Origin: an uncultured bacterium
GTDB lineage: Bacteria; Patescibacteriota; Gracilibacteria; Absconditabacterales; Absconditicoccaceae
Length of the DNA stretch: 64,000 bases
Reading direction: 5' to 3'
Assembly: GCA_937872535.1 (NCBI GenBank)
Contig: CALMTC010000003.1
Location: 1 to 64,000 of the forward strand
The translations under genes were made by a program, and so were the position numbers. The notes beneath the pieces are model-generated. The model saw only the letters and a program-made list of their open reading frames with translations. It did no database searches and had not been told where the DNA came from. Positions 20,546 to 46,793 of this stretch are shown here, one piece after another; within the stretch, counting starts at the first letter, position 1, and each line of letters opens with the position of its first letter.

Positions 20546-21202
20546 ATGCCTTCTCTACAGCACATTATTAATTTTGTACAAGCTGACATGAATGAAGTAT
20601 GTACAGCCCACGATTTTGCGCATATTCAAAGAGTAGTTCGCAATGCAGAAAAAATAATTGCCACAGAAAACAATCCAAACATAAATAAATTTGTAGCTCT
20701 AGCTTCTGCTTACTTACATGAATATTTTGACGAAAAATTTTGGAATAAAGATCAACTAGAAACAAGAGCCGTTGCCTTAGATATTTTTTTAGCTGAAATA
20801 GGAATAACTCCTGACGATCACGAACACATCATCCATATAATTAAACATGTCTGATATGGTAAAAGTCTAACCAGATCTAATGATTTCCCATACACAATCG
20901 AATTTCAAATAGTGGAAGATGCTGACAGACTAGATGCTATTGGTGCGATAGCAATTGCAAGAACTTTTGCCTACGGTGGTAAAAAATGAAGATCAATATA
21001 CGATCCAAACATCCCTATAAAAAAAATTGAAAATGATGAACAATACAGAGATGGAAACAGTCCATCTCTCAACCATTTTTGGGAAAAACTCCTTTTACTA
21101 AAAGATTTAATGCACACCGAAACAGCAAAAAAAATAGCACAATCTAGACACGACTACATGAACAATTTCGTCAATCAATTTCTCAAAGAATGGAATGAAT
21201 AA
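20546..21202 (+). CDS. HD-domain phosphohydrolase (YedJ-like)
   Basis: This 218-residue protein carries [10 protein letters not shown] at residue 22 (first metal ligands), [10 protein letters not shown] near 56 (where most family members have HD) and [22 protein letters not shown] near 132, the YedJ-type signature. Such enzymes hydrolyse phosphate esters of nucleotides, with unknown physiological substrates. The HD-to-HE change in the second motif could alter metal binding. An IS1595-type element is inserted directly after its TAA stop, with the target duplication starting at the next base. Confidence 0.8.
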
Positions 21203-21210
21203 AAATTTAT
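21203..21210. repeat. 8-bp target site duplication, left
   Basis: AAATTTAT here is repeated exactly at 23234-23241, on the other side of the insertion element. Confidence 0.92.
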
Positions 21211-21232
21211 GGTAATTATATACAAGTTTACA
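21211..21232. repeat. Left terminal inverted repeat of the IS
   Basis: It starts GGTAATTATATAC and differs from the complement of the right end at two of 22 positions. Confidence 0.92.
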
Positions 21233-21249
21233 GTTTCAAGTAAAAAAAG

Positions 21250-21272
21250 AAAGGCTTTTTAGCCTTTTTTTT
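21250..21272. terminator. Bidirectional terminator inside the left IS end
   Basis: AAAGGCT (21250-21256) pairs with AGCCTTT (21261-21267), with T-runs on both strands. The TAA stop of the P63C gene (21259-21261) straddles the loop and stem. The hairpin would insulate the element from its host flank. Confidence 0.8.
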
Positions 21273-22245
21273 CTTTTGGGTTATATTCTATTGCTTTCGA
21301 TAGTTTTTGATTGAAATCCGATAACTTGCTTTTGTCTACTGGCTCTACTGTGTGTCATTTCTCATCAAATACAAATGGTAGCGGATATATTCAAGCTTTC
21401 CTTTGATTAAGCTGTTCAAATCTCATCCACATATCTTTCATATTATCCGATAAACGGAAGATAGTAATAATTTCTGTTATCTGATCTTGTAAATGTTTCG
21501 TCCCAACATCCTCAGTTAAAGATTGATGAAATCTTTGTGTGTAATTTCATTGTTTATTTTTTGGGGTATTCTTTTTCAATTCTTCTATTACTCACTTTGG
21601 TAGCTGATTGTAAATTAGTGTATTTGTTCGTGTTCCTATTACAGATGGTCTACTTTTTATTCAATTCACTGTAAAGTCCCAACCGTTCAATCTAAATAGT
21701 TCTTTGTAAAAAGCATCTGGAAACCTTTTTTGTCGTGGTAGTAATTCTTCGCTAATATATACTTTCAATATTTTCTGTAATTCGTCTTTTTCTCTATCAT
21801 ATTGATAACCTGTTGCTTCGTCTACTAAAGCAATAATTCATATTTTTGCAAATGAACGCATTAGTATTTCTGACTGTTCTGCTATCATTTCTTGCCTACT
21901 AGAAAGTTTTATATGTTTTCTAGCCTCAAGAAAAGCATCACAAATATCAACAAGAGTTGTTGCTTCGTATCAGTTTATTTTTGACTTTCATAAATAACAC
22001 TCAATAGGTGCAAAGTGGTCCGCTGATTTTTCGCTATATATAAATGGTTTTAAAGAATTTTGATCTAAATATCTAGCTAATCTGGTCCCCGATGTTCTTT
22101 TCCCTTCCTCTCCTTCATCTACCATCTTTAACGACTCTTGCATTCAACGTCAAGATAATACCCTAGTTCAATCATCTAGTACATAACAAGGTATTTTGTA
22201 ACCATTCAAATCTAACTCTCACTGATAAGCAATTTTTTTAGCCAT
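21259..22245 (-). CDS. P63C-domain protein, IS passenger gene
   Basis: This 328-residue protein contains the P63C domain near residues 185-205 (LPRQKRFPDAFYKELFRLNGW), a region found in phage and mobile-element proteins and thought to bind DNA. The N-terminal part has the look of an AP2/Bro-like antirepressor-type region (GYKIPCYVLDDGTRVLSGRGMQESL). Its ATG overlaps the transposase stop by eight bases, so translation is probably coupled. It lies wholly inside the IS and is passenger DNA. A role in regulating transposition or in immunity to other copies is only a guess. Confidence 0.82.
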
Positions 22246-23155
22246 TTATAAGTTGTTTATAAGATAAACGATTGTCACATTGGGATAAAAGTACATTAAA
22301 TCTCTCTACTTCTGACAGGTCACGTGAATTATATCTAAATACAAATTCATCAACGTACTTTTGAAGGTGTTTTTTAGATGTGAAGTGATAGATACCAAGT
22401 ATTCCTCTCTTCAAAAGACTCCAAAATCCTTCTATTGTATTAGTATAAGCATCTCATCTGCCATATTCTCAAGATCAATGATTCACCATAGCGTGTTTAT
22501 ACATCTTTTTTACGGTATTGTATCAAAGCCATTCATCAGTATAGAGAGAAGCGGTTGATTTGATATTTCTGATTACTTCTTTCGTTAAAGTCTTTGCTTG
22601 TGTATCTTTAACAGTATTAGCAATAAGCTTTCAACCTCTCTCTATCATTCATACAACAGGTGTTTTGTCTTTATTGCTCCTACCTTGAGAGTTCAAAACC
22701 TTCTTATCTGTGTGTCTGTTTTTATTCTTTCATCAAACATAGGTTTCATCTATTTCTACTTTTCAATCAAGCATTCAATCATCAGAGATTCAAAAACACT
22801 TTCTTATTCTTTGAAGTATAAACCAAGCTGTTTTTTGTGTGATGTCCAAATCTCTTGATAATTGCATAGAAGAAATACCCTTTTTATGTGAAGTAATTAG
22901 CCAAATAGCCATAAACCATTTTTGAAGGGGAATTTTTGTATTATCAAACATTGTTCACGTTCTCACATTGAAATACTTTCAAGAATTCTTACATCTGTAC
23001 TTGTGGTTTTTACAAACATATACTTTTGAAAGAACATCAAAAGGACTGACTATACGTCAGTTCCATCTTACTTGCTCCAAATGTTCAATACATTCCTCTT
23101 CTGAGGAAAATGTATTGATAAGTTCGATAATTGAGTTGAAATCTTTATTGATCAT
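22238..23155 (-). CDS. IS1595-family (ISXO2-like) DDE transposase
   Basis: This 305-residue enzyme cuts and joins the ends of the element. It has an N-terminal part with paired cysteines (C48, C55), a helix-turn-helix-like region near residues 92-115 and the ISXO2-type catalytic domain: D136 in VEIDETYVGG, D207 in TDEW and E242 in NTIEGFWSLLKR. Length and motif spacing fit active members. About sixteen glycines are TGA codons, including two adjacent ones in the VGG after the first aspartate. The reading frame is intact. Confidence 0.95.
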
Positions 23156-23182
23156 TATATACTATCATTGATAAACAACAAC

Positions 23183-23210
23183 AGTATATGCTTTGTTTAC
23201 ATAAAATCAA
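23183..23210 (-). promoter_or_regulatory. Promoter of the transposase operon
   Basis: On the minus strand TTGATT (23210-23205) and TATACT (23188-23183) are spaced by 16 bases, 28 bases before the transposase ATG and just inside the right terminal repeat. Confidence 0.6.
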
Positions 23211-23211
23211 G

Positions 23212-23233
23212 TGTAAATTTATATATAATTACC
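23212..23233. repeat. Right terminal inverted repeat of the IS
   Basis: Its complement starts GGTAATTATATAT and matches the left end at 20 of 22 positions. Confidence 0.92.
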
Positions 23234-23241
23234 AAATTTAT
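23234..23241. repeat. 8-bp target site duplication, right
   Basis: AAATTTAT is identical to the left copy at 21203-21210. Confidence 0.92.
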
Positions 23242-28981: not shown

Positions 28982-29575
28982 ATGAATGCAGCGAAAAAAA
29001 AACCAGAAGGATCTTCAAAAAATCCAAACAAAAAAATTGAAGAATTTCTAAAACATCCAACTAAAGAGATGTTAAAAAAAATTCAACAAAATTATCGATT
29101 AGAAATTCTCCAAGAGATTCTAACCGAAACAGGACAGAAAGACAAACACAAAGTATTTGCCAGTTTCTCATTCGAAGACTGGTTACTCGTTTATCTGAGT
29201 AAAGAAAATAAAGATTTCGAGTTTATTGCAATCCAGCAAATGAAAGCGATGGAATCTGAAAATCAAAACTTTGACGAATGGATTCAACTAGAAAAACACT
29301 ATGAAGAAATGGGAAATTTTTTGAGAAGTTTAGCCTTAGAAAAAACTATCAAGTCAGCTGAGACATTCGGTGAAATTGAGATTATTCTCTCAATCATATC
29401 AAATTTAGCAGACTGCCCGGAAAAAGAAAAAACAGCCACCATTGAAAAAGGACGACTATTAGCAAAAGATCCTTGTGATTGGCTCACAATCGTAGAATAC
29501 AGCGAAGACCAACAAGATTGGAAAAAAGCTGAATCACTCAAATTAAGTGACTACAACTATCAAATGAATTTTTAA
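28982..29575 (+). CDS. Uncharacterised helical protein
   Basis: This 197-residue protein is nearly all helix, highly charged, with a lysine-rich N-terminus and repeated pairs of short helices reminiscent of TPR or HEAT-like repeats (FDEWIQLEKHYEEMGNFLRS, GEIEIILSIISNLADC). No signal peptide or membrane segment is seen. I do not recognise a family. A strong terminator follows immediately, and it ends the transcription unit before the secA promoter. Confidence 0.6.
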   Translation: MNAAKKKPEGSSKNPNKKIEEFLKHPTKEMLKKIQQNYRLEILQEILTETGQKDKHKVFASFSFEDWLLVYLSKENKDFEFIAIQQMKAMESENQNFDEWIQLEKHYEEMGNFLRSLALEKTIKSAETFGEIEIILSIISNLADCPEKEKTATIEKGRLLAKDPCDWLTIVEYSEDQQDWKKAESLKLSDYNYQMNF

Positions 29576-29582
29576 AATCTTA

Positions 29583-29608
29583 AGAGACAGGATTACTGTC
29601 TCTTTTTC
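29583..29608 (+). terminator. Intrinsic terminator
   Basis: AGAGACAG (29583-29590) and CTGTCTCT (29596-29603) form a perfect stem around GATTA, followed by a T-rich run. Confidence 0.9.
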
Positions 29609-29636
29609 TTTATCCTCAAAAAAATAGCACCTTAGA

Positions 29637-29664
29637 TTGAAAGCTGCTCAGTTTTTAGTATAGT
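29637..29664 (+). promoter_or_regulatory. Promoter of the secA leader (TTGAAA-16-TATAGT)
   Basis: TTGAAA at 29637-29642 and TATAGT at 29659-29664 are spaced by 16 bases. The sequence from the -10 onward (TATAGTGGGGGAGAA) is identical to the one before ftsA. Confidence 0.65.
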
Positions 29665-29670
29665 GGGGGA

Positions 29671-29790
29671 GAAAGCAGAAAATTTCATTACAAGGAAGTA
29701 CTGAAAAAGTCATGAACTAGTAAAGAACCTGTGAATTGCAACAATAGTGAGTTCCTATTTCAGCACTTCCTTGTGTCTCTCTTCATCGCG
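29671..29790 (+). ncRNA. Structured leader or small RNA upstream of secA
   Basis: A long interrupted hairpin can be drawn. ACAAGGAAGT (29690-29699) pairs with ACTTCCTTGT (29765-29774), CTGAAA (29701-29706) with TTTCAG (29758-29763), and GAACT (29714-29718) with AGTTC (29750-29754). An apical loop of about 31 bases remains. A promoter lies just upstream and secA starts 66 bases after the region. No open reading frame explains it. It could be a cis-acting secA leader or a free RNA of 6S-like shape. The conserved SRP RNA tip (GGAA loop with the AGCAG side) is absent. Confidence 0.5.
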
Positions 29791-29855
29791 TTCAAAAAAA
29801 CTTCTTTTCAATTATTTTTTGCCCTTATTCATCGTTTACTTAAAAAAACAAGACA

Positions 29856-32800
29856 ATGATAAATCGAATTATGTCAGTTTTGACCTGAGATTACAACGCT
29901 AAGGAGATCAAAAAGCTAGCTCCATTGGTTCAAAGAATCTATCATTTTGACAAAGAATATACCAGTCTCTCAGACAGCGAGATCAAAGCTTTGACAGAAA
30001 AATTCAAGGCTAGAATCCAGGCAGGGGAGACGACAGACGACATTTTACCAGAAGCTTTTGCAGCTCTGATCCAGGCTTGTAAAAGAATGCAGGGTGAAGA
30101 ATTTGAAGTAAAAGGCCAATTGCTCAAATGGAATATGGTTCCATACGAATCTCAGCTCATCTGAGGAATGATTTTGCATCAGGGGAAAATCTCTGAGATG
30201 AAAACAGGAGAAGGAAAAACTCTCGTAGCGACCTTGCCAGCTTATCTCAATGCTCTAGAATGAAAATGAGTTCATGTCGTCACAGTCAATGACTACCTTG
30301 CTTCTCGTGATAGTGAATGGATGGCTCATCTTTTCAATTGGCTTTGACTCAGCGTCGGAAATGTGACTAAATCTACACCACTTGCCAATAGAAGAGCAGA
30401 ATACGAAAAAGACATCACTTATGTGGAAAATTCAGAACTCGGGTTTGACTATCTCAGAGACAATCTCACCAGATCCATTTCTCAGAGAAATGTAACTTGG
30501 AGACCTCTTCACTATGCTATTGTCGATGAAGTAGATAGTATTTTTATCGATGAAGCAAGAACTCCGCTCATCATTTCAGAACCTTACGAAGAAACTACAG
30601 ACAAATATGTTTTTTATGCGAATCTCGTCAAGCGTCTTACTCCAGCCACTGGAAAGAAAAAAGTTTCTCAGTGATTTCTCAAAGAACTTATCTCTGACGA
30701 AAAACAAACAGTAGAAGAAAACGGAGACTACTATGTCGATGAAAAGACGAAAACTACAAGTCTCACATCAGCTGGTATCGCCAAGCTAGAGCAGTGGCTC
30801 AAAGTAGAAAATCTCTACAGAGATCTAGGTTACCAAGAAATTCACCATATCGAAAGTGCACTCAAAGCCTTTTCTTGCTACCACAAAGACAAAGAATACA
30901 TCATCGTAAATGGCGAAATTTTGATCGTTGATGAACACACTGGTCGTACGATGCCAGGAAGAAGATTTTCTGATTGACTTCACCAAGCTATCGAAGCCAA
31001 AGAAAATGTAGCAATCCAGAAAGAATCGAGAACTTTAGCGACAGTTACCTACCAAAATTTCTTCAAAAACTACAAAAAACTTTCTGGAATGACAGGAACA
31101 GCTACTACTGAAGGTGAAGAATTTGAAAAAATTTATAATCTGGCTGTTATTGCAATCCCAACCAACAAACCAGTCATCAGAGTCGATAAAAACGATAAAG
31201 TTTTTTTCAATCAAACAGCAAAACGAAATGCCGTCATGAGTGCTATCAAGTTTCATCACGAGATGGGGCAACCTATCTTGATCGGAACATCATCAATCGC
31301 TACTTCAGAATTTGTTTCATCTCTTCTCACAAAGTCAAACATCATTCACAGCGTCCTCAATGCTAAATACCACGAACAAGAAGCTAAAATAGTTTCAAAT
31401 GCTGGAAAAGAAAAAAGTATCGTCGTCGCCACCAATATGGCTGGTCGTGGTACAGATATCAAACTTTCTCCTGAGCTCAATCCAAAAATAGCTTCCAACT
31501 ATGCCAAACGAATAGCTCAGCAGCTCAAGGGAAATACTTTTAGCTCGACAGCTCCAGCCTGAGTAATAGCTTACTTGTACTCAAAAGACGAGACAGAACT
31601 TACTCTCGAAGCTATCAAAAACGAATTTAGCCTCACAGACGACCAGATCAGACAAGCAGAAAAAAACTGGACGACAGCCTGAGATATCGAGCTTAAGATT
31701 TTGTTCAATAGCAAGAAAAAAAGCAACGATACAGTCTACGCCACTATCCATGTAAAACCAGCTCAGAGCAATCCAGACATGATAGAAAAAGATTTTCATT
31801 ACGGTCTTTTTATTCTCGGTACAGAAAAACATGAATCAAGGCGTATCGACAATCAGCTCCGTGGTCGTGCCGGAAGACAGGGAGATGCAGGAATTTCAGT
31901 TTTTTTCGTATCATTGGACGATGAAATTATGAGAAAAATGGGCGGAGAAAGAATTCAGTGAATCGCTTCTATGCTCCTCAGTAAAAAAGAACTCGAAGAA
32001 CTTGAACTCACTCAGAAACAGTTTACCAACTCGATCGAAAGAGCTCAGAAACAAATGGAATGATGGCACTTTAGCATCAGAAAACATCTTTTTGAATACG
32101 ATTCAGTGATCAACAGACAAAGACAGAGAATGTATGGAAAACGCGACGACATTTTAATGAGAGCAGAAGCAGTAGATGAAGAAACCAGAAAACAATTTGT
32201 AGCTGACAGTATAGTAGAAATCAAAGGATTCATCGCGGATGTCACCAAAAAAATTCTTCTCGATTACACAGCACTTTCTTACTCGACCGAAGAATTGACC
32301 AACACGATCGAAAAAGAATTTGGGCTTACTTTGTCAGCATCTGACATAGAAAAAACTAAAAATCTGGATGAACTTCAGACATATCTCATAGACGAAGTCA
32401 GAGCTTACTTCACAGCTCAGTTCTCGACTCTAGAGCTCAATCAGCAGATCGATCTTATAAAAAATGTCTACCTCACGATCATCGACAAATATCGAATCGA
32501 TCACATCGACGACATGCAAAACCTCAGAGATCAAGTCGGTCTTTACGGTTATGCTCAAGTCGATCCACTCATTATCTACAAAAAAGAAGCCTTTGAAAAA
32601 TTTGAAAACCTGCTTAATAATATCAAACAGCACACTATCAGCACGCTTCTCAAAACAGATTTTTCTCTCCTCAAGCAATCTCATCTCCCTGCCAATCAGA
32701 TCACCATGGAAGATAACTCTCTCATCAACGAGCTGATGCATCAGATCAATCCAGATCTTCAGGAGATGCCCATCTACCAGCCTCAAAAGCTACTACAAAA

Positions 32801-32954
32801 TTCGACTCACTCTGATGACGCTGTAGAAATCATCGATCTCAACCAGAAATCAAACTTCCAAACCATTCCACCAGAAAACAAAAAAATCAGACCAAACGAC
32901 CCTTGTCGATGCGGAAGTGGTAAAAAATTCAAAAAATGTCATGGTGCGAAATAA
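29856..32954 (+). CDS. secA: Preprotein translocase ATPase SecA
   Basis: This 1032-residue motor drives proteins through SecYEG. Visible are Walker A MKTGEGKT (about 115-122), NDYLASRD, the DEAD-type box DEVD (224-227), the DEHTGR motif, [19 protein letters not shown] and [10 protein letters not shown] in the second nucleotide domain, and the helical scaffold. The C-terminus is a SEC-C zinc motif, [14 protein letters not shown], which binds SecB or ribosomes in other bacteria. The protein is longer than the usual 840-900; extra sequence lies mostly in the second ATPase domain and before the zinc tail. The start gives [21 protein letters not shown]. Confidence 0.97.
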
Positions 32955-32985
32955 AAATTTTTTATTCTGATAACTACAAAGAGGA

Positions 32986-33558
32986 ATGACAGAAGAAACC
33001 AACCTTACTGAAGAAAATATACCATCAGAAAACGACTCAGCTCAAGCCAATCAGCCATCATACGAAGAGCTGGTAGCTAAAGTTTCCGAGCTAGAAAACG
33101 AGAAAAAAAAGTTTGAAGAGATCGGAAAAAAAGCTCAGCACGATTATATTATGCTCAAGTATGAGTTTGACAGTCTGATCAACAGACTCGAAAAAACAGA
33201 AAAAGAGCTCAAGACATCTACGATGATAGCAAATCTGAAAAAAATCATCCCTTTTGTCGAAGAGCTCAGACAGACCATCGAGCATACTCCAGCTGAAATT
33301 GCTGACAATTCTCGAACACAGTGAATCAAACTCGTTTACGAAAAAACTCTCAAGACACTAGAAACGATGTGAGTCTACCAGATCGAAAGCATCGGACTCG
33401 AACCAGATGCCGAGCTTCACGAACCAGTTGGAGTCGAACCTACCGAAGATCCAGCTCTGAAGTGAAAAATCACGAAAGAATTTGAAAGAGGTTATATCTT
33501 GAAAAATGGAGACGAAAAAAACATTATCAAAACTGCCAAAGTTATCGTAGCTCAATAA
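32986..33558 (+). CDS. grpE: Nucleotide exchange factor GrpE
   Basis: This 190-residue protein has a disordered acidic N-terminus, a long coiled coil (about residues 25-90) and the C-terminal beta-wing with the conserved LEPDAELHEPVGVEPTEDP and KGKITKEFERGYILKNG. GrpE releases ADP from DnaK. No dnaK or dnaJ lies in the window. The start is preceded by AGAGGA, one of the few Shine-Dalgarno-like sites seen here. It follows secA by 31 bases, separated by a copy of the A/T motif. Confidence 0.92.
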
Positions 33559-33565
33559 ATCAATC

Positions 33566-33610
33566 GTTCCCTGAGCCTGCCTGCGGTAGGCAAGACCTGT
33601 CGAAGGGAAA
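33566..33610. repeat. Palindromic repeat with a nested second palindrome
   Basis: The outer arms are GTTCCCTGAG and TGTCGAAGGGAA of the common repeat. The middle is interrupted by CCTGCGGTAGGCAAGA, related to the free-standing palindrome at 2731-2749. This is direct evidence for one repeat inserted into another. Confidence 0.8.
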
Positions 33611-33634
33611 TTTTATTTTCTGCCAAAAATCATA

Positions 33635-34003
33635 ATGCAATTCAAAGACTATCTCGAACAATCAGAAAAAACTCTTTCAAAAAACGATCCTATAGACCTC
33701 ACAGCTCACCAGCAAAAGCTTCTTCACGGAGCGATTGGACTTTCTACAGAAGCTAACGAAATTCTCGATCAGCTCAAAAAACATATCTACTACGGAAAAG
33801 AGCTCGACATCGTAAACATCAAAGAAGAGCTAGGAGATCTTTTCCGATACATGGCAATTTTTTATAGAGAACTTGGTCTCGATATGGAGCAGACTCTTCA
33901 CGACAACATCGAGAAACTCAGAAAAAGATACGGAGAAAAATTCGACGCTCACAAAGCTATCCACAGAGATACGGCCAACGAACTCAATCATATTTCATCA
34001 TAA
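33635..34003 (+). CDS. MazG-like nucleotide pyrophosphohydrolase
   Basis: This 122-residue protein belongs to the all-alpha NTP pyrophosphatase group. The metal-binding pattern is visible as GLSTEANEILDQLKK (EANE) and NIKEELGDLFRYMAIF (EELGD), with the closing helix DNIEKLRKRYGEKF. Such enzymes remove aberrant nucleoside triphosphates or lower (p)ppGpp. Single-domain forms like this are common in phages and small genomes. It precedes map by 9 bases. Confidence 0.88.
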   Translation: MQFKDYLEQSEKTLSKNDPIDLTAHQQKLLHGAIGLSTEANEILDQLKKHIYYGKELDIVNIKEELGDLFRYMAIFYRELGLDMEQTLHDNIEKLRKRYGEKFDAHKAIHRDTANELNHISS

Positions 34004-34012
34004 GAAAAAACC

Positions 34013-34798
34013 ATGTCTCACTCCAAAAAACCTAAAATTATTATAAAAACCCCCGAAGAAATAAAAAATCTCAGAGAGTGAGGTAAATATCACGCTGAGC
34101 TTTTACAGATGATCAGAGCAGCTGCCAAGCCAGGAGTTTCTCTGATAGAGCTAGAAAACATCTCAGCCAACTACATAGCCAAGTATCCAAATCTCAAAGG
34201 CTCATTCAAAAACTACAACGGATTTCCAGCCAATCTCTGCCTCTCTATCAACGACTGTATTGTCCACGGAATTCCCGATAAAACCATTCTCAAAGAATGA
34301 GATTTACTGAAGATTGACCTGGGAATTACTTATCAGAAAACCATAGTCGACGCAGCCATTAGCCACATAGTTGGCGGAGATCATACCAACAAACTAGCCT
34401 CCGATCTCAGCGAAGCGACCAAAAACTGACTCGATGCTTGCATTCATTTAGTACAGCCAGAGAAAAAAATTTCCGAGTACTCTCAAGCGATTTATTCGTT
34501 CATCACTGAGAGAAATTTTTCGATCATCAGAAGTCTCACCGGGCATGGAGTAGGGCGTTTTGTTCATGAAGATCCACCGATCTATAATTTTCCGCATCCC
34601 AAAATGGCAAATATTTCTTTTCTGGAAAATATGGTAGTCGCCATCGAGCCAATCACCGCCATCACTTCGACCGATTTCAAAGAAAAACCAGGCAACGAGC
34701 GAAATCTCTACACCAAAAATGGAGATCTCTGATGTCAACGAGAATATACGCTGCTTGTCACCAAAAATGGTCCAGAAATTCTGGCTGGTTTACCATAA
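34013..34798 (+). CDS. map: Methionine aminopeptidase
   Basis: This 261-residue enzyme removes the initiator methionine after deformylation. Metal ligands are visible: D in KIDLG, D eleven residues later in IVDAA, H in GHGVGRFVHEDP, E in AIEP and E in REYTLLVT. SINDCIVHGIP is the conserved substrate-pocket segment. Length is standard for type I. It follows the MazG-like gene and precedes ruvC by 21 bases. Together with the Fmt domain it covers both ends of N-terminal methionine handling in this window. Confidence 0.95.
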
Positions 34799-45582: not shown

Positions 45583-45824
45583 TTGATAATGAGACTAAAT
45601 TAATTGATTTTCACAAGGAATTACAAATTTTTTGGATCAATTATAATTACCGTGTCCAAAGAAATAAATATTTCAATGATATTTTTCAGGTAAAAATCAA
45701 TTGAAGTATATAATAAAATTAAGTTATAAAAGGAAAAAACAGAATAGTCAGTTTGGTCATAATGCTACTGAGTAGAGAAAAAAAACTTTAAACATATTAA
45801 AATTTTATTTTCTATTTTTTGAAT
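45583..45824. other. Gene-free spacer
   Basis: I see no gene, structured RNA or repeat in these 242 bases. The toxin partner expected after a DinJ-like antitoxin is absent here. Confidence 0.6.
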
Positions 45825-46793
45825 ATGAATATTCCATGAAGTAACAATATAGAAATAGAAAAAAAATACATAGATTTATTTTCATCAGCAAAATTACTTT
45901 CTGAAGAAAAACTAAAAAACATGAAAGAGAATTTAGAATGAGAACATATATTTACTTTTTCATTTAGAAATAAAGAATATTCTATTTGATATGTAAACTG
46001 AAAACCATTTATTTCTGTTGAAATTTCTGCAGAATTACGATCAGATTTATCTGAAGTTGAAAAAAATAAATTTCAAAAAAACGAGAAAAAATGGTATTTT
46101 CAAAATTTTTGAGAATTACCTTTAAAAGAAGAAAGTGAAATTCAAGAAGAATACATCGTTTCAGATTCAAGAAGAATTTTTCCAGAAAATCAACTTTGAA
46201 TAAAGCAATTAAGAGAATTATCTTTAAACGAATGCGTTACTTTAATTAAAAACAAAAAAATACTACTTTACACTTGAGCTTGAATTTCAATTGCTTCAGG
46301 AATTCACGATATGAAAACTTTAAAACAAAAATTATGAATAAATATAAACGAGGATAATTTTTTAAGAACTTTTGCATGAGACCCAGAAAAAGCTTTTGAA
46401 CCTTGGCAACATTTTATTTACACTTCCAAATATAATTCACCAACTAAAGCCCATTATGCTCTAAAAGAGATATCGAAAAAACTTTGATGCCAAATTTTCA
46501 CTGAAAATAGTGATTTTTTACAAAAAAACACATGAATAGAAGATCTACCAATTTCTTGACCATGGATAAGAAAAAATATTTCACCAGAACAGATAAAAAA
46601 AATAGATTATATTCTTACATTTTGATTAAGTTTTGATGATAGATGATTTTTATATTGGTATAAAAAAATCAATCCAAATTGAAAAATCATTGCATTCAAC
46701 TTATCAAAACCAAGTTATTTATGAAAAGAGGATTTTTTATTAAAATGAGATATCCAAGAAACGATTGTCAAATTAAATTATAAAATTCTTTAA
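45825..46793 (+). CDS. Sirtuin-like (SIR2-fold) protein with altered active site
   Basis: This 322-residue protein has an unknown N-terminal region (about 1-140) followed by a SIR2 fold: LLYTGAGISIASGIHD (NAD+ loop, about 150), AHYALKEISKK, FTENSDFLQKNTG (in place of TQNiDxLHxxAG), LTFGLSFDD, and a closing KGDIQETI. The catalytic histidine expected in the family's (E)LHG motif is missing. SIR2 folds lacking deacetylase residues often act as NADases in anti-phage defence, which is one possible role in this accessory island. No standard defence partner is next to it, so this is inference. About 22 glycines are TGA codons. Confidence 0.72.

Follow-up and report, generated by a model that had tools for sequence, protein, structure and literature searches.

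The 64,000-nucleotide stretch of DNA analysed here (the window) carries an intact IS1595-type element of 2023 bp (21211-23233), and the second of its two proteins ends in a conserved tail of ~17 residues, LSxFNxxLKxALxxNP, which also ends most of the passenger proteins in sister elements. This shared tail is the part that a specialist would find surprising. We see an even chance that this clade of IS1595 elements is a two-part machine, consisting of a transposase and a partner that is recognised by a 17-residue tag and onto which unrelated antirepressor-type domains have been grafted; the window copy would have crossed into another genetic code and been recoded with the tag kept.

The element is bounded by inverted ends, GGTAATTATATA, that agree at 20/22 positions: the left end at 21211-21232 (GGTAATTATATACAAGTTTACA), with the same ends in relatives, and the right end, on the transposase side, at 23212-23233 (the complement of GGTAATTATATATAAATTTACA). 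The target duplication on both sides is exact and 8 bp long (AAATTTAT, at 21203-21210 and 23234-23241). GG-terminated ends with an 8-bp duplication are characteristic of the IS1595 family, and identical ends and 8-bp duplications are found in independent relatives (L055, GGTAATTATATATAAATTTACACC; L042; L040; others). We also searched the window for every GG...CC pair with a spacing of 0.5-5 kb and an exact 8-bp flank. The single further pair with agreement of at least 12/22, located at 29311-34054 (15/22), is a chance product of low-complexity sequence, and we rejected it as a second element.

On the left the element is flanked by an intact host gene for an HD-type phosphohydrolase (20546-21202, plus strand; NF007515, E 3.4e-25, under that model's cut-off), whose TAA stop codon is at 21200-21202. 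The left duplication starts at the very next base. The first-pass annotation had put the insertion at the base after the stop, which is correct for the start of the duplication but not for the insertion joint, 8 bp further on. The element lies between two convergent host genes, neither of which is broken, and both of its own genes are on the minus strand, opposing the HD gene. A bidirectional terminator-like hairpin (21245-21272) is located just past the P63C gene, inside the element; four terminator-like sites were found in the region, versus 0.7 expected in shuffles. The empty allele of the insertion site would read AATAAAAATTTATAATCTGG.

The transposase gene (22238-23155, minus strand, TAA stop) encodes 305 aa of the IS1595-type DDE class. 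The protein matches Pfam PF12762 (E 7.6e-46) and NCBIfam NF033547 (E 2.6e-63, 213.8 bits versus a cut-off of 75), and its DDE_Tnp_IS1595 domain has the catalytic residues D136, D207 and E242. Ends, flanks, catalytic residues and the PF12762 match all bear out the earlier description of a complete 2023-bp element with 20/22 ends, an 8-bp duplication and a DDE transposase. The N-terminal zinc ribbon scores 20.9 bits versus a cut-off of 25.4; a zinc ribbon is present in all IS1595 subgroups except IS1016 (PMC8101967). For the model of a relative's transposase the best structural match is a retroviral integrase (Z 11.9, 126 residues at 3.7 Å). With a catalytic fold of the retroviral-integrase type (Z up to 11.9), DDE cutting and joining of DNA is safe to assume, and the window transposase presumably cuts the GG...CC ends by this chemistry.

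The second gene (21259-22245, minus strand, TAA stop) encodes a P63C-domain protein of 328 aa (PF10546, E 2.9e-30, 105.2 bits versus a curated cut-off of 26.1; PHROG 2384, E 2.2e-91). Its start overlaps the stop of the transposase gene by 8 nt (ATGGCTAA, 22238-22245, minus strand), so the two proteins are probably made together by translational coupling. Relatives with other passengers mostly have the same 8-nt (ATGGxTAA) or a 4-nt (ATGA) overlap, whatever the passenger. Among 60 downstream ORFs the passenger slot is occupied by P63C (21), RhuM (12), KilA-N (6), Bro-N (3) and other proteins (18), and the passengers of sister elements are mutually unrelated (P63C, RhuM, KilA-N and orphans of 39-90 aa). 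The open literature that we searched makes no link of P63C, RhuM or KilA-N to IS1595 elements, nor did it yield the passenger set of P63C, RhuM, KilA-N and orphans. The predicted structure of the window P63C is poor (pTM 0.44), and this low-confidence model gave no match in a PDB comparison.

P63C proteins are also encoded by phages and plasmids (PF10546, PHROG 2384). The protein of Javan441, a Streptococcus satellite phage, is 58% identical to that of the window, and the similarity of the phage proteins extends over the whole length up to ~residue 283. Unlike the window protein, the phage copies have neither the C-terminal tail nor a transposase neighbour, and the tail is absent from the P63C proteins without a transposase (Javan441, L134, L137-L139 and L141). 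Viral contigs L302-L307 and L134 encode a P63C that is 69% identical to the window's, again without a transposase; L134, the only one examined over its full length, is tail-less. The C-terminal parts of P63C in L199 (Javan441), L037 and L043 carry sliding-clamp-like motifs (QLSLF, QLSMF and QLKLF), a sequence likeness that might reflect a link to replication.

In the window the conserved tail comprises residues 308-328 of P63C (LSDFNQKLSKAIEYNPKEKKG; 21262-21324, minus strand). P63C proteins align with a conserved end, LSDFNxxLKxALxxNPK, and RhuM, KilA-N and several orphan passengers have this same ending. We built a profile from the P63C tails alone and ran it on the 11,490 frames of all collected loci (E<0.01). 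In the non-P63C loci it detected 28/102 frames adjoining the transposase versus 5/6504 other frames, and all but one of the five are located downstream of the transposase in the same locus. Across 50 genomes, RhuM and KilA-N proteins are tailed in 15/16 cases beside the transposase and in 0/34 elsewhere (Fisher p 7e-12), the new information being chiefly in the 34 negatives, since most of the 16 were already in the first search. The sole exception among the 16 (L052/L215) has a degenerate end, ALTHNPNK.

In fresh viral contigs the tail is found in 6/15 proteins beside any IS1595 transposase versus 1/79 others (a weak match), and the tail-negatives beside a transposase mostly adjoin enzymes of 27-52% identity. 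Among 59 close relatives the tail is absent at E<0.01 in 18, several of which keep a degenerate form. Distant IS1595 transposases (27-47% identity) with an adjacent P63C have no tail, and the coupling of P63C to these transposases is thus independent of the tail. In a second IS1595 subgroup (L329, L341 and L360), ~40% identical to the window copy, a tail-less P63C directly follows the transposase, with an ATGA overlap seen in the sequences of L329 and L341. L319 and L321 have a variant tail, FDxxLKxLLxVPPP, beside transposases 58% and 52% identical to that of the window, respectively, possibly a case of tail and transposase changing together.

Close transposases can have different passengers, and phages and plasmids are known to encode P63C, RhuM, KilA-N and Bro-N domains. 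The second gene could accordingly be ordinary cargo, swapped by recombination at conserved flanks, with the tail a functionless remnant of the exchange point. However, a remnant would escape the kind of constraint that we observe. Tail identity between families at codon positions 1/2/3 is 0.69/0.80/0.45, that is, near background at the third position, and the stretches flanking the tail on both sides are unrelated; the tail is thus conserved as protein and not as DNA. Moreover, the tail survives as a nearly free-standing peptide in ORFs that follow the transposase in L126 (39 aa) and L070 (56 aa). We therefore hold the cargo explanation to be unlikely. In Chryseobacterium loci an ORF of ~80 aa with a worn tail follows the transposase. 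In a read-through model of the L126 transposase with its tail, the tail is predicted, with moderate confidence (pLDDT about 72), to be a helix. A tblastn comparison of the tail with plasmids gave no match, the query probably being too short for the method.

Could the tail bind a host protein instead, such as a component of the replication machinery, and thereby steer the element to replicating DNA? Some other transposons do use the sliding clamp, and P63C outside the element has clamp-like ends of its own (QLSLF in Javan441). But the tail is limited to proteins beside one transposase clade, with none among the 34 RhuM and KilA-N proteins encoded elsewhere in the same hosts. It also tolerates transfer between phyla (the window element; gammaproteobacterial L048 and L055), which speaks for a partner carried along by the element itself. 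On balance, we judge a host partner to be quite improbable. The distribution of the tail follows the transposase clade; neither host nor phylum nor the remainder of the passenger predicts it, which makes the transposase its likeliest partner. The swappable domains are of phage-antirepressor and DNA-binding kinds, so regulation or target choice would be the likeliest role of the passenger.

Both genes are adapted to a code in which UGA is glycine, as the first reading of the DNA had it. There are 14 in-frame TGA codons in the transposase gene and 12 in the P63C gene, together 26/43 of the element's glycine codons (60%), and in aligned relatives these sites are glycine (GGN) in 64% of cases for the transposase and 74% for P63C. 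The host genome has a tRNA with anticodon UCA (labelled selenocysteine by the program), which together with TGA at glycine sites marks the UGA-glycine code (NCBI table 25), and the other genes of the window use TGA for 373/1038 glycine codons (36%). In the standard code the transposase would be truncated at residue 33 and P63C at residue 9; that the copy is unreadable there was likewise stated correctly. A Sir2-like gene (45819-46793), which lies where the window is most A+T-rich (24% GC), has TGA at 18/19 glycine codons.

Codon use in the window is strand-asymmetric, CTC accounting for 27% of leucine codons in plus-strand genes versus 9% in minus-strand genes, and tests for foreign genes must therefore match strands. 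Foreign codon use as proof of recent arrival was rejected: the difference in CTC, GTC, GCC and AAG is mostly gone when the element is compared with same-strand host genes. The difference left after strand matching is weak (2/107 versus 43/442, p 0.005), as is the difference in the TGA share of glycine codons (60% versus 38% in strand-matched host genes, p 0.014). With strand taken into account, the element uses codons as the host does, apart from a slight excess of TGA.

We scanned 84,980 species genomes with glycine-free peptide patterns, which are hence blind to recoding, and obtained 79 loci, the best being from Bacteroidota (up to 70% identity). The nearest relatives are 65-70% identical at the protein level, have the same ends, come chiefly from Bacteroidota and mostly have glycine at the TGA sites. 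Near-identical copies with GGN at these positions, which would have spoken against the first-pass annotation, were looked for and not found; the 70%-identical copies were. In a tree of 108 proteins the window transposase belongs to a 35-row, mainly Bacteroidota group (SH-aLRT 86) inside a 61-row group (SH-aLRT 99), apart from the Patescibacteria copies, and grouping it with the latter is rejected by the AU test (p = 0.00095). The P63C tree agrees with the transposase tree. Since the transposase is inside a standard-code clade, its line passed from the standard code into the UGA-glycine code at least once; nesting among standard-code relatives with the same ends and duplications makes the recoded state the derived one.

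This is at odds with the earlier view of a lineage-locked family, the nearest kin being standard-code and mainly from Bacteroidota. An old code-25 element that circulates only among UGA-glycine bacteria would account for a copy that is unreadable elsewhere. It would also account for a TGA share above the level of strand-matched host genes, since the copy may have arrived from a different code-25 host that uses TGA more heavily; a genome of that kind exists (77% in the L118 locus of G381). With standard-code Bacteroidota as the nearest kin and no other code-25 copy found, we nevertheless give such an origin little credence, and as a statement about the family it is already contradicted. The TGA excess may suit an earlier stay of the window copy in another code-25 host.

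Within the 49 genomes of the host's order the closest transposase is 29% identical to that of the window, code-25 kin being only distant ones (25-30%), and P63C is absent. Neither the order's remaining 48 genomes nor the viral collection yielded a copy like the window element, and the close DNA matches in other genomes of the family are pieces of chance length only. The host genome has a single fixed insertion, without further copies or solo ends, which settles the copy count that had been called for at one. The expectation of an empty site in close relatives was disappointed: 11 further genomes of the family encode HD homologues, and in the stretches examined the downstream gene is not adjacent to them, so the neighbourhood is not syntenic and no empty site was found. 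That the element has to move inside code-25 lineages can fairly be deduced for the copy as it stands today. Neither a further code-25 copy nor an empty site was found, and the claim is a deduction only.

A better case for movement inside code 25 is G381, a code-25 genome of the same family. It has three ~99% identical copies (L120, L121 and L122) of an IS1016-like element of ~0.77 kb with 14 in-frame TGA codons, which is direct evidence of a recoded insertion sequence multiplying inside the code. The copy in L121 (L121:1-1434) adjoins a CRISPR array with 36-bp repeats of the AAAAAGAAAAGCTCTTAAACAAGAGCATCGAAAC type.

Passenger genes are known in general in the IS1595 family. PMC8101967, which credits the description of the family (PF12762 / NF033547) to Siguier et al. 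2009, states that a member usually has one gene. The window element has the DDE domain, GG-terminated ends and 8-bp duplications in common with the family. It departs from it in a second gene whose product has the shared tail, in the reading of TGA as glycine and in an apparently degenerate zinc ribbon. With its clade transposase, stop/start overlap and C-terminal tail it belongs to what we propose as a tailed-passenger IS1595 group. Tn7-type systems have a separate protein that selects targets or regulates, and the window element may resemble them in that its transposase is paired with an accessory protein, the variable part of which could select the target. Unlike them, it has no AAA+ ATPase and only one small accessory protein, and a 17-residue tail takes the place of folded interaction domains, so the likeness would be one of working only.

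Phages cross between UGA-glycine and standard-code hosts by avoiding TGA stops (PMC10746230). Both genes of the window element end in TAA, a likeness to these phages; unlike them, the element then gathered TGA-glycine codons and lost the way back. Some standard-code relatives have both genes TAA-ended (L039 and L040 among them) and others have a TGA stop in the ATGA overlap; a code-25 cell that took up such an element could translate only the TAA-ended kind correctly from the start. From this one case we infer a stop-codon filter on entry into such cells.

The explanation that we favour, with somewhat better than even confidence, joins these observations. A two-gene IS1595 transposon of a kind found mainly in standard-code Bacteroidota, with TAA-ended genes, would have entered a code-25 Patescibacteria lineage; the nesting comes from the trees, and the direction and route are inferred. 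Its glycine codons would have drifted to TGA until both proteins were unreadable outside the code, and its insertion between convergent genes produced the 8-bp duplication and broke neither gene. The second protein is modular: its N-terminal portion varies and is of the phage-antirepressor type (P63C here; RhuM, KilA-N or a short orphan elsewhere), and its C-terminal tail of ~17 residues is conserved. The tail would bind the transposase or the transposase-DNA complex, tethering a swappable module to it, and the variable part would supply regulation or target choice.

The element appears to show how mobile DNA can pass from standard-code bacteria into a recoded lineage and there become unreadable to the outside, a one-way door that is more informative than a sealed gene pool. 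The shared tail points to an undescribed partner system in a very common family of transposases. If the tag does bind the transposase, P63C, RhuM and KilA-N proteins, whose functions are obscure, would have a role that can be tested where they occur within such elements. The tag would then also offer a means of attaching domains of choice to a transposase.
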